Shown: positions 1-12,100 of the stretch, one piece after another
Layout: each line of letters begins with the position of its first letter
How positions within the stretch are numbered: position 1 is the first letter of the stretch
Assembly: GCA_031283825.1 (NCBI GenBank)
Contig: JAITAZ010000361.1
Span: 1-12,630 of the forward strand
Source: Planctomycetaceae bacterium
Lineage (GTDB): Bacteria; Planctomycetota; Planctomycetia; Pirellulales; Thermoguttaceae
Length of the DNA stretch: 12,630 nt
Reading direction: 5' to 3'
Made by a program: the position numbers and the translations under genes
Notes under the pieces: model-generated
Databases searched by the model: none
Told to the model about the DNA's origin: nothing
The model's input: the letters and a program-made list of their open reading frames with translations, nothing else

Positions 1-51
1 TCTTGCATTCCCCTTTTATCCCCTTAAAATTATTGACTTCTATCACACAAA

Positions 52-160
52 ATCATCATTTGTTTTCTCCGCGATTATCCGTATTCACCAAAAAAATCTG
101 TTATTATCCGCGTTTAAAAAATCCCCCTATTATCCGTGTTTAAAAAACCGTGAACGGTTA
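52..160 (-). repeat. 3' flanking repeat block with three degenerate ATTATCCG units
   Basis: The octamer ATTATCCG occurs at 74-81, 103-110 and 129-136, spaced 29 and 26 bp; the second and third copies are followed by (C/T)GTTTAAAAAA. The block ends in the CCGTGAACGGTTA hairpin beside the desulfurase stop. A shorter relative in the same orientation follows the RloB gene (5761-5830), sharing CCGCGATTATCCGT, TGTTTAAAAA and the terminal CCGTGAACGGTTA. Confidence 0.7.
141..159 (-). terminator. Candidate terminator after the desulfurase gene (repeat-derived)
   Basis: Read on the minus strand, AACCG-TTCA-CGGTT forms a 5-bp stem with a four-base loop, followed by a run of T and beginning about 11 nt past the stop codon. 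It is short for an intrinsic terminator. The same hairpin occupies the same place after the RloB gene, which supports a terminator role. It is also part of the dispersed repeat family of this window. Confidence 0.45.
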
Positions 161-170
161 TCTTATTGTT

Positions 171-2150
171 TTAGCGGCGGCTTTTTTTGGAAATGTCTTT
201 TACGATCTTTATTAGGAAATCTATCTCTTCATACGTGTTGTAAAATGCTAACGACGCTCTGACAGTGCTTTCTAATCCGAAACGTCTTAATATCGGTTGC
301 GCACAATGATGTCCGGCACGAACTGCTATTCCTTCAGACGCAAGAATTTTATTGACTTCCTCCGTCGTAAATCCATCAACCAAAAACGAAATTACCGCCG
401 CACGATTCGACGCATTGCCTACAACCCTTACACCAGAAATCTGATTGAACTCATCCAACGCATACTCCAAAAGTCGATGCTCATACTGCCTAATACTCTC
501 CAATCCAATCGAACCAACATAGTCCAACGCCGCACCAAGTCCAACCGCATCCGCTATGTTGCCAGTTCCCGCCTCAAAACGAGCCGGCGCAGGATTGTAT
601 CGCGTCCGCTCAAACGTTACATCCGAAATCATCCCGCCACCACCTTGATACGGTCGCATCGAATTCAAAATCGACTCGCGTCCATACAAAACACCAATGC
701 CCGTCGGCGCAAAAATTTTATGTCCCGAAAATACAAAAAAATCCGCCCCAAGCATCTGCACATCAGTCGGAATATGAGAAACCGATTGAGCACCATCAAT
801 CAATACCCTCGCACCAAATTGATGAGCAACCTGAACAATCTCCTCAGTCGGCGTGATCGTTCCAATCGCATTAGATACCTGCGTTACCGCAACCAATTTC
901 ACCCTGCCACTTCGCAAAATATCCGCATAACCGCTAATCATCAACTCGCCATTCGAATTAACCGGAATCACACGAATCACCGCGCCAACCTCCGACGCCA
1001 ACATCTGCCAAGGAACTATATTCGCATGATGCTCAAGATGAGAAATCACAATCTCATCACCCGCCCGAATATTGTCCCTGCCCCACGCCGACGCTACAAG
1101 ATTTATCGCCTCCGTCGTCCCACGCACAAACACAATCTCATTCGACGACGACGCATTCAAAAACTTACGCACAACCTCACGCGACCGCTCATAAGCATCC
1201 GTCGAACGCGCCGCTAAATCATGCGCACCACGATGAACATTGGAATTTTCATGCTCGTAAAAATATCGCAACCGCTCTATCACCACACGCGGTTTCTGCG
1301 TCGTCGCGCCATTGTCAAACCAGACCAAAGGCTTGCCATGAACCCGCTCGGAAAGAATCGGAAAGTCATTGCGAATAGAGACTACGTCAAACTCACGCGA
1401 TAAACCACTAACCAAATTAGAAACACGACCCGACGACAAATCCGTTTTTTTGTCAACGTCCGAATTTTCAACTCCAACCTCGACTCCGCCATTGCCATTG
1501 ACATCATTAGCCGCCTTACGCGAATTAATATCAACCAAATCAAACGCAACTTTCGCAGCGTCTTCAAATCCGTTTTTATAAAGCGTCTTTGAAATTTCAC
1601 GCCCGACCTGCTGCACGTCCCATTCAATCCCCGAAACCTCGCCGACTTCCATACTCGCGCCGTCAACAAATTTATCACCCGACAAAAATTCAGACACTAA
1701 TAACGACGACGATTTACTCTCAACCGGATTCGTTATCAAATCAGAATTAGGAATTGTATTAGAAATCGTAGAAATATCGGCGTCGGTCGAAGGTATGTTG
1801 TCAACCGAAATCGGATTTTCAACAAACGGACTACGATCCGGAAAAAAATCACTCATGTAATCAGACTGCAAAATCGCTTGCGTCTGCCAGTTGTCAGACA
1901 AAACGTCATCGCCGACAATCGAACTCGGTATCGAACTCGGAATCGAAGTCGGGATCGAATTTGAAATCGAACTTGCCGTCGGAATCGCATAAGGATTGAC
2001 CGCAATTAAATTCGACGCCGTTTCGTTGGCGTCTCTCGTGTCTGCAAAATTATTTTCCGCAAACTGATTAAACTGATTGTCAGACTGATTATCGTTATCA
2101 GCAGCGCGAACCGCAGCATAAACGAGATTATCAAGCGTTGAAATATTCAT
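171..2150 (-). CDS. SufS-type cysteine desulfurase with long disordered N-terminal extension; predicted encapsulin cargo
   Basis: PLP-dependent enzyme of 659 aa that removes sulfur from L-cysteine, giving alanine and a cysteine persulfide. The catalytic domain is about residues 254-659 and matches the class V aminotransferase / group II desulfurase (SufS) family. Visible landmarks are the cofactor-stacking histidine region EHHAN (373-377), the phosphate-site DGAQS (D452), the Schiff-base lysine in SGHK (K478), the catalytic cysteine in RAGHHC (C616) and the substrate arginine in RASLAFYNT (R631). Ordinary SufS proteins are about 400 aa, so roughly 250 N-terminal residues are extra. These are rich in N, D, S and I, with a four-residue repeat at 59-78. 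Family 2A encapsulin cargo desulfurases carry just such an extension, which targets them into the shell, and an encapsulin gene lies upstream on the same strand. No Shine-Dalgarno precedes the ATG. A hairpin with a T-tract lies about 11 nt after the stop. The enzyme assignment is firm; cargo status is inferred from extension and context. Confidence 0.95.
   Translation of the reverse strand: MNISTLDNLVYAAVRAADNDNQSDNQFNQFAENNFADTRDANETASNLIAVNPYAIPTASSISNSIPTSIPSSIPSSIVGDDVLSDNWQTQAILQSDYMSDFFPDRSPFVENPISVDNIPSTDADISTISNTIPNSDLITNPVESKSSSLLVSEFLSGDKFVDGASMEVGEVSGIEWDVQQVGREISKTLYKNGFEDAAKVAFDLVDINSRKAANDVNGNGGVEVGVENSDVDKKTDLSSGRVSNLVSGLSREFDVVSIRNDFPILSERVHGKPLVWFDNGATTQKPRVVIERLRYFYEHENSNVHRGAHDLAARSTDAYERSREVVRKFLNASSSNEIVFVRGTTEAINLVASAWGRDNIRAGDEIVISHLEHHANIVPWQMLASEVGAVIRVIPVNSNGELMISGYADILRSGRVKLVAVTQVSNAIGTITPTEEIVQVAHQFGARVLIDGAQSVSHIPTDVQMLGADFFVFSGHKIFAPTGIGVLYGRESILNSMRPYQGGGGMISDVTFERTRYNPAPARFEAGTGNIADAVGLGAALDYVGSIGLESIRQYEHRLLEYALDEFNQISGVRVVGNASNRAAVISFLVDGFTTEEVNKILASEGIAVRAGHHCAQPILRRFGLESTVRASLAFYNTYEEIDFLIKIVKDISKKSRR
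1918..1977 (-). repeat. 12-bp tandem repeat inside the desulfurase extension
   Basis: Five consecutive 12-bp units, each starting ATCGAA on the plus strand (ATCGAACTCGGT, ATCGAACTCGGA, then three diverged copies). On the coding strand they give a four-residue repeat with isoleucine every fourth position (SSI, SNSI, PTSI, PSSI, PSSI; residues 59-78). The repeat stays in frame and sits in the predicted disordered cargo-targeting segment, so its copy number could vary without harming the enzyme domain. Confidence 0.85.
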
Positions 2151-2515
2151 TGTAAATATTTTTCGTTAGTGCCGGTCTCGATAAGAATTATTCGCGTATT
2201 TAATTCGATTGTAATATATCAGTGAAATTTTTGTTTTATCTTTTGAGTCTTGAATTCGTACTATTCAGTCGCAATATTTTTTTAAGGAATAAAGGCGACA
2301 ATTGAGACAAAAGCAATGATAGTTTCAAATCAATTTTGCGACACATGGACAAAACAAATATTTCCCGACGATATATTACATTCGATTTGAGTTTTTCTCG
2401 ATGTCGGCTTGTTCGCGCGGAATATACAGTATATATAGTACGCGACAAAACCGACATTACGTTTTTTAATTCTTTGACCGGCTAAATTATTTATTGTTAC
2501 GTTAATTCGTTTGTT
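2151..2515. other. 365-bp spacer between shell and cargo genes
   Basis: I see no credible gene here. A 73-codon minus-strand frame (2236-2457) has no ribosome binding site and an arginine/leucine-rich composition typical of chance frames. The spacer holds a quasi-palindrome ATATACAGTATAT at 2422-2434, and on the minus strand TTGTCG (2443-2448) lies 16 bp before TATATT (2421-2426), a weak promoter-like pair. The gap is long for two genes expected to be co-expressed, so the desulfurase may have its own promoter. Confidence 0.5.
2421..2448 (-). promoter_or_regulatory. Weak candidate promoter for the desulfurase gene
   Basis: Minus strand TTGTCG, 16-bp spacer, TATATT; the start codon is about 270 nt downstream. 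The boxes are imperfect and the region is AT-rich, so a chance match is quite possible. Confidence 0.25.
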
Positions 2516-3469
2516 TTATTTATCGCTGTAAGAATAGTAATGTCCGACGTCGATATTTTCGAGTGCGGCTACGGCGTCGTCGGCGAAAATTGCCAGCGAA
2601 CAATAGACGGATAGAAAATACGACGCGATTCCATGCTTATCGACTCCCATGAATCTCACGGCTAATCCGCGTGAAACTCCGCCGGGCAAATTCGCTTGAT
2701 ATAAACCTACGACTCCGCGTTTCTTTTCGCCGGTTCGTACTAGCAAGACGTTTGTTTTTCCGGCTTTACTTTGCGGATTTTTTATTCCGTCAACAAATAA
2801 TTTATCTGTTGGAATAATTGGGATACCTCGCCAAGTTAAAAACGACGCGCCGTAAAACGAAACAGTCGCCGGTGGAACTCCGCGTCTCGTGCATTCTCGA
2901 CCAAACGCCGCAATTGCTCGCGGATGTGCAAGGAAAAACGACGGCTCTTTCCAGACTTTAGAAATCAATTCGTCAAAGTCGTCGGGTGTCGGCGAGCCTG
3001 ATATAGATTTGATTTTTTGCGATGCAACGACATTTTTCAACAGACCGTAGTCGTCGCTGTTGATCAATTGACTTTCTTGTCGTTCTTTTAAACTTTCGAC
3101 AGCGAGTCGGATTTGTTCGTTGACTTGATCGAAAGGACTACTGTACAAGTCGGCGATTCGCGTGTCGATATTGATTACCGTTGAGATAGAATTTAATCTA
3201 TATTCTCGCGGCGAGGATTCGTAATCGACGAAGCCTTCGGGTACTTTGCTGTCGTCTGTAGCTTGACGGCAGAGCGAGTCTAGCGGCGTTTCGCCTTCTT
3301 TAACTTTATTCAGTCGGAAGATCCCTGTTTCCAAAGACTTCCAATCAAGAAAACGCGGCAGCCAACGTGGAGTCAACGAGCCAAAATGGGCTTCCGTTTT
3401 AGTTACATTGGCAAGTTGATAAGCCGCTTGAACGCCCAATGTTCGGGCAGTATTGTTCGTTTCAGACAT
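2516..3469 (-). CDS. Family 2A encapsulin shell protein (HK97-fold nanocompartment)
   Basis: A 317-aa protein recognised as a Family 2 encapsulin, which self-assembles into a hollow icosahedral shell in the cytoplasm. Family-like features: the N-terminal block TKTEAHFGSLTPRWLPRFLDW (23-43), then an extended-arm segment ending VDYESSPREYRL (81-92), RIADLYSSPFDQVNEQIRLA (104-123) leading into the long helix ESLKERQESQLINS (125-138), FFLAHPRAIAAFGRECTRRG (178-197), the GIPIIPTDKL strand (215-224) and the C-terminal SYFLSVYCSLAIFADDAVAALENIDVG (283-309). There is no inserted cyclic-nucleotide-binding domain, which places it in subtype 2A rather than 2B. GGAG lies 9 nt before the ATG. The gene precedes a desulfurase with a cargo-type extension, which is the known 2A cargo. 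A phage capsid protein is the alternative, but no phage genes are nearby and the match is to the encapsulin family. Confidence 0.9.
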   Translation of the reverse strand: MSETNNTARTLGVQAAYQLANVTKTEAHFGSLTPRWLPRFLDWKSLETGIFRLNKVKEGETPLDSLCRQATDDSKVPEGFVDYESSPREYRLNSISTVINIDTRIADLYSSPFDQVNEQIRLAVESLKERQESQLINSDDYGLLKNVVASQKIKSISGSPTPDDFDELISKVWKEPSFFLAHPRAIAAFGRECTRRGVPPATVSFYGASFLTWRGIPIIPTDKLFVDGIKNPQSKAGKTNVLLVRTGEKKRGVVGLYQANLPGGVSRGLAVRFMGVDKHGIASYFLSVYCSLAIFADDAVAALENIDVGHYYSYSDK

Positions 3470-3515: not shown

Positions 3516-3538
3516 AATTATCGTTACGATAATTATCG
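3516..3538. promoter_or_regulatory. Candidate operator upstream of the encapsulin gene
   Basis: AATTATCG-TTA-CGATAATT is a perfect 8+8 inverted repeat (3516-3534). Its right half runs into a second perfect palindrome, CGATAATTATCG (3527-3538). Together they give three alternating half-sites centred about 55 bp upstream of the encapsulin start, where a dimeric regulator could bind. The regulator is not encoded in this window. AT-rich palindromes arise by chance fairly often, but a perfect 19-bp one this close to a start codon deserves notice. Confidence 0.45.
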
Positions 3539-4429: not shown

Positions 4430-5095
4430 TCAACGAAGTTGATTTGTGTTGATTTCATCGTTTTCGCTAATATCTTCGTTTATGTCTTCATCGTCATCTG
4501 GTACTACGTTTGCCGCTGAACCAAGCGCATCGGCAATTTGTTGAAGAGTATTACCAGCTGTGTCGCCGTTGTAAATGAACTCATTTTTGTCAGAGTCGTA
4601 GGTGTAATCATCTTTTTTATGTCCATCTGGCGCATTGTATAGAAGCCAAAAATCGTACTCAGTACCTTGTGCATCTGGATGCTCATCATAACTTACAAAT
4701 GATGTATCATTATAAGTTGTATAGTATCCTTCCTCATGCGATTCGTCATATCCAGATGCTTTAAATTGTCCAGTGGACAACGTTATACTTCCGTCTGACC
4801 ATTTTGTCGCATAGGCGTAACTTACCTTTTCATTAGTAGTCACATTACTGAAATAATACCCACTTGAACTATATTTTCCTGTTCCTGGTTCAACCCATTG
4901 ATAATTTGTTGCTCCTTCAATAGGTTGACTTGTAACATAAATTTCCGCCGTAACTGGATTGTTATTCTGATTCTGGATAAAAGTCAAATAAGTTACGCCA
5001 GAAGTAGGCGTATCTGGCGTGTTGTTATTACAGCAACCGCTACTCAAACAAACGCAAAAGCTCAAAAGAGCTACTAGCACAAAAAGTTTTTTCAT
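4430..5095 (-). CDS. Secreted probable lipoprotein, function unknown
   Basis: A 221-aa protein I do not recognise. It begins with a classical export signal: MKK, a hydrophobic stretch (residues 4-17), then SSGC with C21 as the likely lipidated residue. The lipobox is imperfect because position -3 is Ser rather than Leu. An Asn/Thr/Pro linker follows (23-32), then a Tyr-, Ser-, Thr- and Gly-rich body (35-180) that looks beta-strand rich, then an acidic tail (DDDEDINEDISENDE, 200-214). Start choice: AGGAG sits 8 nt before this ATG, whereas an upstream TTG at 5191 would overlap the promoter and add a stray hydrophobic segment. The leader AACACTTTTTTAGGAGAA closely matches that of the encapsulin gene. 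It stands alone between two repeat clusters. It probably acts at the membrane or cell surface. Confidence 0.75.
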   Translation of the reverse strand: MKKLFVLVALLSFCVCLSSGCCNNNTPDTPTSGVTYLTFIQNQNNNPVTAEIYVTSQPIEGATNYQWVEPGTGKYSSSGYYFSNVTTNEKVSYAYATKWSDGSITLSTGQFKASGYDESHEEGYYTTYNDTSFVSYDEHPDAQGTEYDFWLLYNAPDGHKKDDYTYDSDKNEFIYNGDTAGNTLQQIADALGSAANVVPDDDEDINEDISENDEINTNQLR

Positions 5096-5132
5096 TTTTA
5101 GTTCTCCTAAAAAAGTGTTTCTTGAAAATGCA

Positions 5133-5149
5133 GTTGACAATATATCAAC
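5133..5149. promoter_or_regulatory. Quasi-palindrome in the lipoprotein leader
   Basis: GTTGACAATATATCAAC has 5-bp perfect outer arms (GTTGA/TCAAC) and lies just downstream of the predicted transcription start. It could be an operator or a small 5' RNA hairpin. Low certainty because of the AT-rich setting. Confidence 0.3.
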
Positions 5150-5162
5150 CGCGACTAACAAC

Positions 5163-5191
5163 AATATAGTAAAAAATAACAAACTTGTCAA
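5163..5191 (-). promoter_or_regulatory. Sigma70-like promoter of the lipoprotein gene
   Basis: On the minus strand a perfect TTGACA (5186-5191) is followed by a 17-bp spacer and TATATT (5163-5168). Transcription would begin near 5156, leaving a leader of about 60 nt before the ATG at 5095. This is the strongest promoter match in the window. Confidence 0.65.
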
Positions 5192-5841: not shown

Positions 5842-6546
5842 CTACTGAATATTACAAAATTTTTGCAATTCCCTGACCAGTTGATAAACGTTTGTTACAG
5901 GATTAATTTCCCAAGGCGTTTCAGGAAGTTTTTGACTTGCCGTATTGTGTAATTTTTCTGCTCGTTCAACAGCTAATTCGCGATTCCCATACTTACGAAT
6001 AATTCCGTAAGGAAAATGTTTAAGTTTACTTTTAGATTCGATTTTTGTTTTTTTATTTTCTTCCTGTTTGTGCTGAAGTAACTTTGTCAAATTTGCTCGC
6101 GTGATTTGTTTGGTTTGTTCTTGAAAATGTAACAACAGCCAAAGTTCAAAACAAACATTACTGTAGGCGACGTTGATATGCGATTGCTGCGCCAAACTGA
6201 TTGCTGTCGAATAATTTTCACCGAAGTCGTCTTGATCAAAAACCACCCATACGATGTCGTTATTTTCCGTATAACTTCGCTTGTATTTATTAACATAATC
6301 TCGCGCATGTTCAACGATTTGCTTGGGTGCTTTGTTGACAAATTCCACTGTTAAAAATTGAGAACGAATATTATTACCGGCGAGGTCTTTCACTAGCTCG
6401 GTAAAATATTTCATTTCTGTTACTTTTCCGTTACAAAAAATAAAGAATAAATTTGATTGACGTTTTTCTGCCCGCGATTCGTAATAATTTAGCGGAACGG
6501 CTGGTGATCGTCTTTTACCTGCGCCGCGATTTTGTTTTGGAGTCAT
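5842..6546 (-). CDS. RloB-family protein (AbiLii-like, TOPRIM-type putative nuclease)
   Basis: A 234-aa protein of the RloB family, found next to AAA ATPases in phage-defence loci. Visible features: a basic N-terminus (KQNRGAGKRR, 4-13); a first strand leading to GKVTE (E44); VWVVFDQDDF, with an acidic cluster D104, D106, D107, resembling the Glu plus Asp-x-Asp layout of TOPRIM nucleases; the family signature SNVCFELWLLLHF (129-141); and the C-terminal NPVTNVYQLVREL (215-227). The ATG at 6546 was chosen because GGAGA precedes it by 5 nt; an in-frame TTG lies 24 nt upstream. The first 32 nt overlap the end of the ATPase gene, so the two are translationally coupled and probably act as a complex. 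In AbiL-type and similar ATPase/TOPRIM systems the partner is thought to be the toxic effector. Nuclease activity is inferred from motifs. Confidence 0.85.
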   Translation of the reverse strand: MTPKQNRGAGKRRSPAVPLNYYESRAEKRQSNLFFIFCNGKVTEMKYFTELVKDLAGNNIRSQFLTVEFVNKAPKQIVEHARDYVNKYKRSYTENNDIVWVVFDQDDFGENYSTAISLAQQSHINVAYSNVCFELWLLLHFQEQTKQITRANLTKLLQHKQEENKKTKIESKSKLKHFPYGIIRKYGNRELAVERAEKLHNTASQKLPETPWEINPVTNVYQLVRELQKFCNIQ

Positions 6547-7795
6547 TGGGTTCTCCGTTGATGAAATCAATAAAATCGCATAGAGGAATTCCTCCGAAGC
6601 GTCCGTTTAGATAATCTTCTTCGTACAATGAATTCGGCGGAATTTTAAACTCTGCGAAATTAGTTAATTGACTTGAAAAATTCGCGTTCTTGTCCATAAA
6701 CCAAACTTGATCGCGACGTAATAATTTTTTACGCAACGGATAAGTATTATGAGCCGTGAATATCAATTGCGAGCGTCCGTTGTTGTTACGATGAAAAAAG
6801 TTTAACAACGCTTCTATCAAAAATGGATGTAATTGAATACCTATCTCGTCGATACACACGACGCCGTCCGTGTCGATTGCTCTTAAAATTGTGCCGGCGG
6901 TATAAAGCATTTTCAGTGTGCCGGCAGATAATTTATCTAATTCTAATTCAACGTTTTTATCTCCGCATTGATAAACGACGTTAAAATTTCTTCTTTTAGA
7001 AATTGTCTGTTCGACAATGTTTGTTTCGGGATTACGTTTATTTTGAACAATGTTTTGTTCGTGTTTTTGAAAATCGACAATACCGGTATCTGCCAACTGT
7101 ACGATCTGTTTCAAGCGTTTAAAAATTGTCGGATCGTTTAAGTACTGATTGGGATTTTGATCGGACAAGTTGTCCATCAAAGTTTTTCCTTTTGTTGGGA
7201 CTCCTCTTATTTGAATACGTCTAAACCAGTCAAAAATTTCCTTTGAAATTAAACCGTTGTAAGAATGACAAACAGACAAAAAAAGCGCGTCTGGTCGGGT
7301 TTGCGATTCCTTTCCTTTTCCTTCGACAAAAGAATTGCCAACAATTATTTTCTGTTTGTTTCTGTAGAACAATTCTTTTTCGTTACGATAAAGCCATTCG
7401 CTTGCAATACAATCGTGTTGTGATTCGAATCCGTATCGGTATAAATATTTTCCGATCAGAAATTGTATTTCATAAAGCGTCGGGTTTTGATTTACATTTT
7501 TGGTAAGAGCAAACGGCTCATAAACAGACCGATAAAGCGGACGATTACCAGCAAGATTATAAAAAACGAATTCTTGCAAATTAGAAAGACCAATTAACAA
7601 ATTCGATTTCCCGCTTGAGTTTGCTCCGTAGATAACTGCCGTCTTCAAAACAGACGAGTATTTTTTATGTTTAGTCGTTACAAGATGCGTTCCGTTATAT
7701 TTATCATCTTCCTTTAAGCTATTTATTGGAAGCATAGAAAACATAATTGGCTCTTGGAAAGAACGAAAATTATTCAACGTGAAACTGACTAACAT
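6515..7795 (-). CDS. AAA15-family ATPase (RloA / AbiLi-like defence ATPase)
   Basis: A 426-aa ABC/SMC-type ATPase of the AAA15/AAA21 group. It starts with the family's usual MLVSFTLNNFRSFQE; an ATG 24 nt upstream would add MRRLFCTF, and neither start has a Shine-Dalgarno. Walker A is GANSSGKS (57-64). A long helical middle (about 80-270) follows. The signature is LSAGTLK (289-295), Walker B is VVCIDEIGIQLHP with D316 and E317, and the switch histidine lies in TAHN (347-350). Near the end GRFGGIPLCDF is typical of the RloA-like group whose neighbour is RloB. All ATPase motifs are intact. By analogy with AbiL and PARIS-like ATPase/TOPRIM pairs it would sense phage infection and hold or release the RloB partner. 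OLD-type nucleases were considered, but there is no fused TOPRIM domain; that role is on the separate downstream gene. Confidence 0.88.
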   Translation of the reverse strand: MLVSFTLNNFRSFQEPIMFSMLPINSLKEDDKYNGTHLVTTKHKKYSSVLKTAVIYGANSSGKSNLLIGLSNLQEFVFYNLAGNRPLYRSVYEPFALTKNVNQNPTLYEIQFLIGKYLYRYGFESQHDCIASEWLYRNEKELFYRNKQKIIVGNSFVEGKGKESQTRPDALFLSVCHSYNGLISKEIFDWFRRIQIRGVPTKGKTLMDNLSDQNPNQYLNDPTIFKRLKQIVQLADTGIVDFQKHEQNIVQNKRNPETNIVEQTISKRRNFNVVYQCGDKNVELELDKLSAGTLKMLYTAGTILRAIDTDGVVCIDEIGIQLHPFLIEALLNFFHRNNNGRSQLIFTAHNTYPLRKKLLRRDQVWFMDKNANFSSQLTNFAEFKIPPNSLYEEDYLNGRFGGIPLCDFIDFINGEPNDSKTKSRRR

Positions 7796-7910
7796 AAACG
7801 TACAAAAAAGGCGTCGCATTATCGCGAACTAAAATGAGAACAGCCAAAAAAAATTAATGTAACAAAATGTATAATATATTTTGAACGTGAATAAATGGTT
7901 CTTTTTTTAA

Positions 7911-8369: not shown

Positions 8370-8984
8370 ATGTCAGAATCTGTTGATATTGAAACAAATA
8401 ATGTTGACGTTGAACTGTCCGAATATGAACAAGTTCGCGGAATAGATTTACAAAATCCTGTTATTGCCGGTTTTTTGACTTGGTTGCTTCCGGGTCTCGG
8501 GCATTTTTATCAAGGACGCCGCGCGAAAGCATTGCTATTTTTTTTATGCATTATGCCAATGTTCGCAATGGGTTGTTTTTTCGGCAGTAGCTTAGACGTC
8601 GGAGAATCCGGCGAAGTCGGAATCGCACGAAATGTTTATTTCTCGTGGAGACAACAAGACAAAAGACTCTTTTTCATTCCTCAAGCATGTATTGGAATCG
8701 CGGCTATTCCTGCATTGATTCAATCGCTCTGGACAAACTCCGGCGACCCGCCACCATTCGGAAAATTCATGGCGCCGCCCCAAATCGATAGCACAGATAA
8801 AACAGGCGTACCGCCAACTCTAACAGATATTGCAAAAAAATTACACTTCCTATTCGAACTCGGAACTTACATCACCGTAATCGCAGGTCTAATGAATCTA
8901 CTCGCAATTTTCGACGCCATCGATGGTCCTCTCGTTTATCGCAATGAAAAACAAAATAATGAAAATAAAAAAGAACAAAAATAA
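8370..8984 (+). CDS. Four-helix membrane protein, TM2/DUF6677-like
   Basis: A 204-aa integral membrane protein. Hydrophobic segments lie at about 30-46, 53-72, 101-121 and 161-182. The first pair is joined by FLTWLLPGLGHFYQGRRAKA (35-54), a motif shared with TM2-type domains and, from memory, with a family of small membrane proteins common in Planctomycetes (DUF6677-like). The sequence after the third helix has DPPPFGKFMAPP (126-137), again as in that family. N- and C-terminal tails are charged and probably cytoplasmic. There is no known enzymatic function. The gene lies 38 nt upstream of the restriction-modification gene on the same strand, so they may be co-transcribed, but the family is usually a housekeeping-type hypothetical and the link may be accidental. 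No Shine-Dalgarno is visible. Confidence 0.75.
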   Translation: MSESVDIETNNVDVELSEYEQVRGIDLQNPVIAGFLTWLLPGLGHFYQGRRAKALLFFLCIMPMFAMGCFFGSSLDVGESGEVGIARNVYFSWRQQDKRLFFIPQACIGIAAIPALIQSLWTNSGDPPPFGKFMAPPQIDSTDKTGVPPTLTDIAKKLHFLFELGTYITVIAGLMNLLAIFDAIDGPLVYRNEKQNNENKKEQK

Positions 8985-9022: not shown

Positions 9023-12000
9023 ATGTTTCAACAAATTATTTTAAAAAAATATATTGAATCCAACGCCGATAAAATTCATTTGGCGTTTGAGCGTTATGTT
9101 CTTTTTTTTCACGACGCGGAGCGTCAGGCGTATATTCGGCAATGTATAGAGTCGCAATTTCAGGAGGGATTTTTACGCGAACTTTTTGTCAATGTTCTTG
9201 GTTATACGCTTATCCCTGATCCAAATTACAATCTCATTCCTGAAGGAAAAAATGAGACAGACGCCGGACGCGCCGACGGAATAATTTTTATCAACAACGA
9301 CGTCCGCGCAGTTATCGAACTAAAAGATATTCGAACAATCGATCTAAAATTGGTTGAGAAACAAGCGTTTAATTATAAATATCAACACAAAAACGCGGCG
9401 TATGTTATAACGTCAAATTTTGAAAAATTACGTTTCTATATTGACAACGCTGTCGAATATTTCGAGTGGAATCTTTTCACGCTTACAGAAAATCAATTTG
9501 CCGAACTTTGGATTTGTCTTGCGTATGAAAATATTGTCGATGATTTGCCGAAAAAGTTAAAAAACGAAACTATCAGTCGAGAAGATGAAATCACGAAAGA
9601 ATTTTATAACGTTTACAAACAATTCAAAAATTCGTTATTCTCTGATTTAATTGCAAACAATTCTCAACACGATAAGTTGACTCTCTTTTCATGTTCGCAA
9701 AAAATTCTTGACCGGCTTGTTTTCATTTTGTTTTCGGAAGATTGCGGATTACTTCCGCCAAACACGATAAAAAAAATCATTCGCGAATGGAAAATTCTTG
9801 AAGACGCGGATGAATATCGTCCTCTTTATACTCATTTGCAAAAATATTTTTCGTATCTTGACAGCGGCGGCAAGGGTAAAAATCAAAATATTTTTGGCTA
9901 TAACGGCGGATTATTTCAGCCGAATAAACTTCTTGACAGTCTAAAAATCTCTGATTCAACGCTTGTCGAGCGTCTTAACAAGTTAAGCGATTACAATTAT
10001 CGCAGCGATGTTAATGTTGATATTCTTGGACATATTTTTGAAAATTCGCTTGCCGAGATAGAGAAATTAAAATACGAACTTTCAGGACTTGAAAGTTACG
10101 AATTACGCGAAACAAATAAGCGTAAAAAAGACGGCATTTTTTATACTCCGCGTTATATTACTTCGTATATTATTTCTAGTACGCTTGGTAAATTATGCGA
10201 TGAAAAGAAAATTGAACTCGGTTTGGATAAAGAGGAATTATTCGACCAAATAATCGAACAGAATGGCAAGACGAATAATAAATTAAATGGTAAATCTAAT
10301 GGCAAGCAAAAAAAAGTTACGTCGAATCCGATACTTGAGAAGTTAGAGAAATATCGTCAATGGCTTTTATCTCTTTCGATCTGCGATCCAGCTTGCGGCA
10401 GCGGCGCGTTTTTGAATGCGGCGTTGGATTTTTTGAAAGAGGAACATTATTTTATCGACAAGTTGACTGCTCAAATTCTAGGTCATTCGATTGTTTTTTC
10501 CGAGTATGAAATTTCTATTTTAGAAAATAATCTCTTCGGCGTTGACGTCAATGAAGAAAGCGTCGAGATAACAAAATTAGCGTTATGGTTGCGGACTGCC
10601 AAACCGAATCGCAAGTTAAACTTTCTTGACGCAAATATCAAATGCGGCAACTCTCTAATTTCCGATCCAAAAATTGATCCCGACAAATCATTCGATTGGC
10701 GTAAAGAATTTCCCCGCATTTTTGAGAAAGGCGGATTCGACGTTGTCATTGGAAATCCGCCTTATGTTTTTTCGCGCAGCGGTAAATTTTCGGAGATTGA
10801 GAAAGAGTATTATTATTCTCGTTATCCGTTATCGAATTATCAATTGAATACATATTTATTGTTTATTGATCTTGCTTATTATCATCTTTTGCATGACAAC
10901 GGCGTATTCGGCTTTATCGTTCCGAATAATTGTCTGACAATTGACACGTTTCAACCGTTCCGCAAATTTTTATTAGAACAAACGGGCGACATCGAAATTG
11001 TCAATATTATTAACGGCGTTTTTAGCGACGCGAATGTTGACAATTGTATTATTACGTTTAAGAAACAAAACGCCGACAAAATATCAATTGGAGAAATGAA
11101 CAATGAAAAATTAACGAAAATAGGAACGTTTCCGGCGTCAATTTTTGCAAAGGAACAATACATTATAAATATCGCGATTGCAAAAAAACCGGAGGTTGTG
11201 CAGTTAATGAAAAAAATTGAATTAACGGCAGAACCGCTGGAGCGACATGCAGTTGTTTCAACTGGTATTAAAGCGTATCAAGACGGCAAGGGCAAACCGT
11301 CGCAAACAACTCAAATGAAAGAAAGCAGAATTTATCATTCGCGTCAGCAGACAACTGACGAGTTTATAAAATATCTTGATGGTAAAGACGTGAGTCGATA
11401 TTTATTATCGTGGTCTGGCGAATATGTAAGATATGGCGATTGGTTAGCGGAGCCGCGTCGTTCTGTTGATTTTTCAGCGCAGCGTATTTTAGTGCGTCAA
11501 ATTCCGAGTCAACCGCCTTACTGTATCAATGCCGTTTTTATAAATGCTCTTGCAATAAACGATATTAATAGTATGATAATTTTCAATTTTAATATTGATC
11601 CGTTATATCTTCTGGGTATTCTTAATTCTCGTTTGATGAGTTTTTGGTTTATCAATAAATTTGATAAATTTCAACGCGGGATATTTCCGCAATTCAAAGT
11701 TAAGGAATTGTCGTTGTTTCCGATAGCAGTTTGTAACAAGGAAAAACAAAAACAACTTGTTGGTCTTGTTGATAAAATAACTTCGCTTCAGAATAGCATC
11801 CAATTAAAACGACAAAAATTTTTAAGACGAGTAACCGATAACTTGGGAAACATTCAGCCGTTGGGAGTCTTGGAATATTTTGATCGCTTAAAATTTAAAG
11901 AATTTTTAGAACTATTATCGAAACGAAAAATCAAACTCCGCTTAAATGCTCAAGCAGAATGGGAAGATTTTTTTAACGAGAATCAAATCTTGTGTCGTAA

Positions 12001-12100
12001 TATTGTCAAGCAAATTACCGAAACCGACAATGAAATCGATCAATTGGTTTACGAATTGTACGGATTAACTGAAGACGAAATTAAATTTATCGAAGGATAA
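9023..12100 (+). CDS. Type IIG-like restriction-modification protein (Eco57I-type methylase with N-terminal nuclease)
   Basis: A 1025-aa single-chain enzyme predicted to cut and methylate DNA. The N-terminal nuclease domain (about 40-165) is of PD-(D/E)XK type: GRADG (D85), IELK (E99, K101) and Q114. A helical linker follows, with VDILGHIFENSL at about 332-343, then GIFYTPRYI (motif X region, Y374-P376) and a short N/K/G-rich loop (about 412-430). The gamma-class methyltransferase core has motif I DPACGSG (455-461) and motif IV NPPY (578-581), which indicates N6-adenine methylation. The C-terminal third (about 740-1025) resembles a TaqI-type target-recognition domain and ends in coiled-coil-like helices. 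The length is normal for the family and all key residues are present. The start ATG has no Shine-Dalgarno. BREX PglX was considered, but the nuclease domain and lack of BREX neighbours speak against it. The recognition sequence cannot be read from the protein. Confidence 0.9.
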   Translation: MFQQIILKKYIESNADKIHLAFERYVLFFHDAERQAYIRQCIESQFQEGFLRELFVNVLGYTLIPDPNYNLIPEGKNETDAGRADGIIFINNDVRAVIELKDIRTIDLKLVEKQAFNYKYQHKNAAYVITSNFEKLRFYIDNAVEYFEWNLFTLTENQFAELWICLAYENIVDDLPKKLKNETISREDEITKEFYNVYKQFKNSLFSDLIANNSQHDKLTLFSCSQKILDRLVFILFSEDCGLLPPNTIKKIIREWKILEDADEYRPLYTHLQKYFSYLDSGGKGKNQNIFGYNGGLFQPNKLLDSLKISDSTLVERLNKLSDYNYRSDVNVDILGHIFENSLAEIEKLKYELSGLESYELRETNKRKKDGIFYTPRYITSYIISSTLGKLCDEKKIELGLDKEELFDQIIEQNGKTNNKLNGKSNGKQKKVTSNPILEKLEKYRQWLLSLSICDPACGSGAFLNAALDFLKEEHYFIDKLTAQILGHSIVFSEYEISILENNLFGVDVNEESVEITKLALWLRTAKPNRKLNFLDANIKCGNSLISDPKIDPDKSFDWRKEFPRIFEKGGFDVVIGNPPYVFSRSGKFSEIEKEYYYSRYPLSNYQLNTYLLFIDLAYYHLLHDNGVFGFIVPNNCLTIDTFQPFRKFLLEQTGDIEIVNIINGVFSDANVDNCIITFKKQNADKISIGEMNNEKLTKIGTFPASIFAKEQYIINIAIAKKPEVVQLMKKIELTAEPLERHAVVSTGIKAYQDGKGKPSQTTQMKESRIYHSRQQTTDEFIKYLDGKDVSRYLLSWSGEYVRYGDWLAEPRRSVDFSAQRILVRQIPSQPPYCINAVFINALAINDINSMIIFNFNIDPLYLLGILNSRLMSFWFINKFDKFQRGIFPQFKVKELSLFPIAVCNKEKQKQLVGLVDKITSLQNSIQLKRQKFLRRVTDNLGNIQPLGVLEYFDRLKFKEFLELLSKRKIKLRLNAQAEWEDFFNENQILCRNIVKQITETDNEIDQLVYELYGLTEDEIKFIEG
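10307..10497 (+). repeat. Near-identical direct repeat, copy 1 (methylase motif I region)
   Basis: Matches 12440-12630 with about six mismatches over 191 nt at a constant offset of 2133 bp. It spans from the A8 run through motif I (DPACGSG) to LGHSIVF. Copy 2 runs to the window edge, so the repeat may extend further. Confidence 0.9.

Follow-up and report, generated by a model that had tools for sequence, protein, structure and literature searches.

Our analysis concerns a pair of genes at one end of a 12,630-nucleotide (nt) stretch of DNA from a Planctomycetaceae bacterium, which encode an encapsulin shell protein and a cysteine desulfurase. This stretch, hereafter called the window, is the entire contig C426 of the draft genome G000, which totals 3.46 Mb over 689 contigs and is 73% complete. 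Both open reading frames (ORFs) were confirmed, at 2516-3469 and 171-2150 on the minus strand. As a first-pass annotation made from the DNA letters had proposed, the shell gene is followed on the same strand by the desulfurase, which is the next gene, 365 nt away. The locus is laid out as follows.

2516..3469, minus strand: Family 2A encapsulin shell gene, 317 amino acids (aa); matches to NF041162 (480.8 bits), PF19307 and SrpI (6x8m).
171..2150, minus strand: gene for a SufS-type cysteine desulfurase, putative cargo, 659 aa; matches to PF00266, TIGR01979 and NF041166; best Protein Data Bank (PDB) match, 8kg1.
1392..2150, minus strand: N-terminal extension of the desulfurase, residues 1-253, probably disordered (low confidence; predicted local distance difference test score [pLDDT] <50 over residues 19-252, shallow alignment).
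1842..1850, minus strand: D101-F102-F103, proposed core of a loading signal, from conservation in 15 rows.
186..1391, minus strand: catalytic domain of the desulfurase, residues 254-655, from family and PDB matches.
717..719, minus strand: Lys478, presumed pyridoxal phosphate (PLP) lysine, in SGHK, invariant in 15/15 rows.
303..305, minus strand: Cys616, presumed catalytic cysteine, in HHCAQP, invariant in 15/15 rows.
2151..2515, minus strand: gap of 365 nt between shell and desulfurase genes, from the ORF coordinates.
1..170, no strand: contig end; the window being the whole contig, the downstream neighbor of the desulfurase lies outside the assembly.

Is the 317-aa protein an encapsulin or a phage capsid? 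It scored 480.8 bits with the NCBIfam encap_f2a model NF041162 (cut-off, 380) and 367.3 bits with the 2B model, which is under the cut-off of 400 for that model. The Pfam family SrpI-like (PF19307) gave a single match, at residues 58-309 (E 5e-94), and neither a cyclic-nucleotide-binding domain nor any other Pfam domain was found in the protein, in agreement with the earlier claim that this shell lacks such an insert. The best PDB match was SrpI (6x8m; E 2e-115), aligned over residues 12 to 314. An AlphaFold model of the shell, built from 7 near-relative rows, had a mean pLDDT of 32.7 and was not used; a putative HK97 fold is suggested by the homology to the solved SrpI shell. The first-pass annotation was right in placing a Family 2A encapsulin gene at 2516-3469.

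The alternative is that the protein is a prophage capsid that neighbors the desulfurase by chance, and it draws on a weak match to a phage head protein (phrog_212, major head protein, the best of the phage families at 45.4 bits). That score stands against 480.8 bits for the 2A encapsulin model. Moreover, a phage family was found in 0 of the 7 window ORFs scanned with Pfam, and the desulfurase gene lies at most 1.5 kb downstream of the shell gene in 73 of 74 related loci (defined below). On these results we regard the prophage capsid as refuted, with next to no chance of being correct; the condition set beforehand for rejecting the encapsulin, a better match to tailed-phage capsids than to Family 2 encapsulins, does not hold.

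The 659-aa protein carries an Aminotran_5 domain (PF00266) at residues 276-646 and scores over the cut-off of the SufS model TIGR01979; its SufS-type catalytic domain starts at about residue 254, with 8kg1 as the best PDB match. The Family 2A cargo model NF041166 gave 788.9 bits, slightly below its cut-off of 800, and left residues 1-154 unmatched. Lys478 (SGHK) and Cys616 (HHCAQP) were invariant in all 15 aligned sequences of the genus and family. We take the former to be the PLP lysine and the latter the catalytic cysteine, both of which had been described as retained. The gene at 171-2150 encodes a SufS-type desulfurase with the annotated N-terminal extension of about 250 residues. The two genes together belong to an already known kind of pair, and the homology suggests that they encode a Family 2A nanocompartment that would hold the SufS-type desulfurase as its cargo.

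Can the N-terminal extension load the enzyme into the shell, as had been argued for this locus? In an AlphaFold model of the desulfurase, built from a shallow alignment of 15 rows, pLDDT was <50 over residues 19-252, which is consistent with disorder. The length of this region is not conserved among relatives. Within the shell subclade of the window, it ranged from 84 to 263 residues in the genus, with the maximum in G020, and was 52 residues in G051, a member of the same family. A 14-mer loading motif was then learned by Gibbs sampling from 63 non-redundant N-termini of other lineages (71 eligible). This motif, DERELERWANEYFP, resembles LARLANEFFS as published in the part of PMC8049743 that was available. 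It was not detected in the N-terminus of the window, for which 742 of 1000 shuffles were equally good. Among the 14 rows of the window's clade that belong to the genus, L043 came closest, with 28 of 1000 shuffles as good. On motif and length, the case for loading is weaker than had been claimed. The canonical motif was clear in G005 (L048, same genus) and G044 (L049, same family), with 0 of 1000 shuffles as good in each case. The shells of these two genomes are placed elsewhere in the shell tree than that of the window, which, together with their canonical motif, suggests separate acquisitions.

Within the clade of the window, D101 and F103 were invariant in 15 of 15 rows, and F102 was conserved in at least 90%. 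No further position of the extension was invariant except R252, at the domain boundary; A13 was nearly so. In the window, as in its closest relatives, the DFF stretch is preceded by a long run of low complexity. We infer that the D-F-F core is a diverged loading signal.

We then asked about the partners of the desulfurase. The first-pass annotation had noted that no serine acetyltransferase or rhodanese gene is adjacent and that the partner chemistry was open. The former is true for the sequence in hand, yet the downstream side is unseen: the contig stops 170 bp beyond the stop codon of the desulfurase, so that a missing downstream partner is not evidence. The latter question is largely answered by a gene cluster on another contig of the genome, C623, and by genes of the same kinds, often with serine acetyltransferase, beside the shells of relatives. 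On C623, cysM, mec, cysO and moeZ are consecutive and on one strand, with domains confirmed by Pfam.

C623 1189-2073: cysM, PALP domain.
C623 2285-2710: mec, Prok-JAB domain.
C623 2716-3036: cysO, ThiS domain.
C623 3055-4212: moeZ, ThiF and rhodanese domains.

The CysO of C623 matched two PDB entries: 4n6e at E 1e-16 and, at E 1e-14, 3dwg, which we take to be CysO of Mycobacterium tuberculosis. The C623 protein lacks a free C-terminal Gly-Gly, the pair being followed by VVIE, and therefore a trimming step would be needed; short tails after the Gly-Gly of CysO are common among relatives too. In a cysM/cysK tree of 41 rows, the C623 cysM fell within a 35-row clade of CysO-linked cysM (support, 100/100), separate from six CysK-like rows. 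Its subclade consisted of exactly G000, G006, G017, G019 and G020 (100/98). The shell subclade of the window is made up of these five genomes and a sixth, G008, for which no cysM match was found at 1e-30. The C623 type of cysM thus travels with the shell type of the window and adjoins it on no contig seen.

How common are these genes among relatives? A shell match was found in 18 of the 21 genomes of the genus, and a desulfurase match (E 1e-160 or better) was found in 15 of these 18. No desulfurase match was obtained in G006, in G007 or in G014, whose contig continues beyond the shell. G007 holds a remnant only: at L051:3506-4051, one frame fuses shell residues 53-188 to desulfurase residues ~390-436, which is either a deletion remnant or a misassembly. 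Separately, G072, G078 and G084 gave shell matches of ~50% identity in frames of 491-546 aa (at least two in G072), which are probably Family 2B.

Genes for a cysteine synthase, a ThiS-type carrier and a JAB protease adjoin the shell-desulfurase pair in G015, G010, G051 and G044 (in G044, the JAB gene is not adjacent). A ThiF-rhodanese protein is also encoded beside the pair in G010 and G044, and the G044 locus further includes genes for an Rrf2 regulator and a serine acetyltransferase. The protein types are those that PMC3227635 describes for the CysO pathway. Among 99 related genomes, 12 of the 21 that have a 2A shell also have mec, versus 1 of the 78 that lack one; the contrast comes mostly from one genus. 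Outside the genus, mec was present in 3 of 3 genomes with a shell (G044 included) versus 0 of 75 without.

The same gene order recurs well outside this group. Named genomes were scanned with seven aligned shells, and the best 80 loci, which represent the nearer part of the family, were reduced to 74 by leaving out 6 copies of genus contigs. In the shell tree (midpoint root, bootstrap not settled), 59 of the 74 loci fell in the clade of the window and 15 in the other clade. Neighboring genes were identified by tblastn at 1e-4 and counted as linked when they shared the strand of the shell and lay no more than 6 kb away, in loci with at least 3.5 kb upstream. By this measure cysO, ThiF and rhodanese were linked to the shell in 42 of the 45 such loci in the window's clade versus 1 of 14 in the other clade (L144), a contrast with a Fisher P of 2e-9 when kinship and near-copies are ignored. 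The loci of the window's clade without cysO were L099, L113 and L141. Among the 45, mec was also linked in 39 and serine acetyltransferase in 30, and rhodanese lay directly upstream of the shell in 41.

The full set of cysM, mec, cysO, ThiF and rhodanese was found in 17 loci from about seven phyla as labelled in the records: Spirochaetota, Bacillota, Synergistota, Pseudomonadota (Enterobacter sp. 10-1), 'Deltaproteobacteria', Hydrogenedentes and Planctomycetales. Fibrobacter and a Desulfovibrio have cysO, ThiF and rhodanese as well. With the best match per locus, copies included, the JAMM motif was present in 57 of 60 proteins and the rhodanese cysteine loop in 62 of 65. A Pfam check of nine proteins, drawn from three loci, gave the expected domains in eight. 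For the ninth, a fusion in Pseudobutyrivibrio xylanivorans MZ8 (L098:8467-9924) that joins carrier, ThiF and rhodanese in one 485-aa protein and adjoins a JAB protein, Pfam confirmed ThiF and rhodanese, and the ThiS part was identified by tblastn only. Besides this fusion gene, the L098 locus holds mec and the genes for shell, desulfurase and serine acetyltransferase, with no cysM match in the vicinity.

On the basis of this gene order, we favor, with moderate confidence, a model in which the desulfurase, enclosed in the shell, provides sulfur for cysteine synthesis by way of CysO and perhaps also stores it. Cysteine would enter the shell, where the desulfurase, judging by homology, would release its sulfur. 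The rhodanese domain of the MoeZ-like enzyme may accept this sulfur, and its ThiF domain would activate CysO toward a C-terminal thiocarboxylate. CysM would then join the sulfur of CysO to an activated serine, and the Mec-like JAMM protease would free cysteine. Because such a cycle starts and ends at cysteine, it is sensible only as buffering, storage or protected transfer of sulfur. Storage by desulfurase encapsulins is mentioned in PMC12407261, and elemental sulfur has reportedly been described in such shells. The tails after the Gly-Gly of CysO and the L098 fusion of carrier and MoeZ raise the possibility that the JAMM protein has a second role in maturing the carrier. More tentatively, and as something short of an even prospect, a widespread 2A branch found in several phyla, and often in gut samples, could be a dedicated sulfur reservoir and donor for CysO cysteine synthesis, in which sulfur drawn from cysteine would be held in the shell and passed through MoeZ to a ubiquitin-like carrier, with the JAMM protein maturing and recycling this carrier; the genus of the window would then have scattered the genes and rewritten the loading signal.

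Several observations weigh against this coupling. The CysO cluster and the shell pair are on separate contigs in G000, and, as described, the usual loading motif was not detected in the window. The shell-adjacent cysM genes of G015, G051 and G010 lie in a sister branch of the C623 type, and G019 and G020 each have two cysM copies, the second of the other type; the cysM of C623 may therefore be a paralogue with another job. Even in the clade of the window, no more than 17 of the 45 loci have a linked cysM, and in two of these (L095 and L099) the gene is CysK-like. Two of the 12 mec matches in shell genomes are weak: that of G044 has 28% identity and lies away from the shell, and that of G011 is a contig-end fragment. 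Within the genus, at least one of cysM, mec and cysO was found in 11 of 18 genomes with a shell versus 1 of 3 without (P = 0.55), and G012 has a CysO cluster with no detected shell. In 7 of the 21 shell genomes, one of which (G018) is 90% complete, none of the three genes was detected, with identities of at least 58% required for cysM and at least 45% for cysO; some of these absences may reflect gaps in the draft assemblies. Finally, MoeZ- and CysO-like proteins can serve molybdopterin synthesis as well.

Could the compartment act without CysO? One possibility is an SrpI-like encapsulin for sulfur storage or starvation that has no dedicated acceptor, the CysO cluster of the genome being unrelated. 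In the other shell clade, cysO is missing from 13 of the 14 loci that could be assessed, which fits such a role, as do the seven shell genomes of relatives without a detected CysO set. According to PMC8049743, sulfate starvation induces SrpI of Synechococcus elongatus, and the SrpI cargo shows higher activity when inside the shell; PMC12407261, a later paper, refers to sulfur storage by desulfurase encapsulins. What such a compartment leaves unexplained is the recurrence of CysO genes by the shell and desulfurase in many phyla, and beside the pair in the planctomycete relatives G015, G010, G051 and G044, and for this reason we consider it unlikely, if worth keeping in mind. The enzyme could also provide sulfur generally, for Fe-S clusters and tRNA, and be encapsulated for stability only. 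It may be the sole strong desulfurase of its genome, as the class V aminotransferase matches in G000 comprised one strong match of 469.6 bits followed by matches of 23.3 and 18.8 bits. The genome is 73% complete, however, further desulfurase-like genes of 28-34% identity occur in other genomes of the genus, and the linkage with CysO genes is conserved, which makes a general role quite improbable. The supply of sulfur to CysO remains the explanation that we prefer.

Noncoding sequence around the pair was also inspected. Two promoter-like matches lie within the 365-nt gap (9/12) and one spans the desulfurase start (10/12), as judged by consensus; no terminator-like match was found in the gap on the minus strand, and a search of the window for known RNA families gave none at gathering thresholds. 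The regions upstream of the shell and the shell-desulfurase gaps showed little conservation when aligned across close relatives. An exact 17-bp palindrome, ATTATCGTNACGATAAT, lies at 3517-3533, 48 nt before the shell start. It has 269 matches in the G000 genome at up to 2 mismatches, versus 2 for the reversed control, and ten inspected exact sites were four between and six inside predicted ORFs; near the cysM of C623, matches have 3 mismatches. A shared operator was rejected on these grounds. The palindrome is a genome-wide element, and its abundance and its sites inside ORFs make it uninformative for the shell locus.

Elsewhere in the window, overlapping RloB/AbiLii-like and AAA-ATPase AbiLi-like genes at 5842-7819 (minus strand) are likely an abortive-infection defense pair, and 9023-12100 encodes a large type IIG restriction-methyltransferase. 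Restriction/methylase-like genes were also seen by eye near the shells of L042 and L035 and between cysO and moeZ in L179, and such loci may therefore collect defense genes. A DUF6677 protein is encoded at 8370-8984, and a 253-aa protein without a family match at 4430-5191. For encapsulins in draft genomes generally, a caution follows from this contig: a partner gene missing beside the shell may merely reflect a contig end.

How does this locus compare with known systems? Major membrane protein I (PDB 8t6r, 9ksl and 8wol, which are presumably mycobacterial) belongs to the same shell family as the window protein (E 1e-113 to 1e-101) and comes from a different host. Searches of the full texts covered, supplements and most subscription papers excepted, turned up no link between an encapsulin and the CysO pathway. 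Specifically, ThiF, MoeB and sulfur carrier do not occur in the main text of PMC8049743, nor do these terms or ubiquitin in that of PMC8346489, whose supplementary Fig. S5 was outside scope. The pair itself is known, and we make the modest claim that its link to the CysO route is new as far as this literature extends. The sulfur supplier of CysO was called unknown in 2011 in the part of PMC3227635 available, and the acceptor of the sulfur from an encapsulated desulfurase is a second gap. Because the gene order repeats across phyla, the two gaps may be one and the same sulfur step.

The shell of the window is homologous to SrpI over its length and likewise has no cyclic-nucleotide-binding insert, and its desulfurase has an N-terminus similar in length to the 225-residue disordered N-terminus described for the CyD cargo of Synechococcus elongatus PCC 7942 (PMC8049743, available part). 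Unlike in CyD, the motif LARLANEFFS is not detectable in the window, and the N-terminus varies strongly in length among close relatives. Also unlike SrpI/CyD, the genome of the window has the CysO set, and related shells have CysO genes alongside. For Family 2A desulfurase operons, the portion of PMC8346489 at hand names rhodanese and serine acetyltransferase as the most enriched accessory genes, and both are common to the relatives' loci studied here. The M. tuberculosis CysO-CysM-Mec-MoeZR pathway, for which the available part of PMC3227635 does not mention an encapsulin, has the same four protein types that are clustered in G000, with a CysO match to 3dwg. The serine acetyltransferase adjacent in relatives suggests that the acceptor would be O-acetylserine rather than O-phosphoserine.

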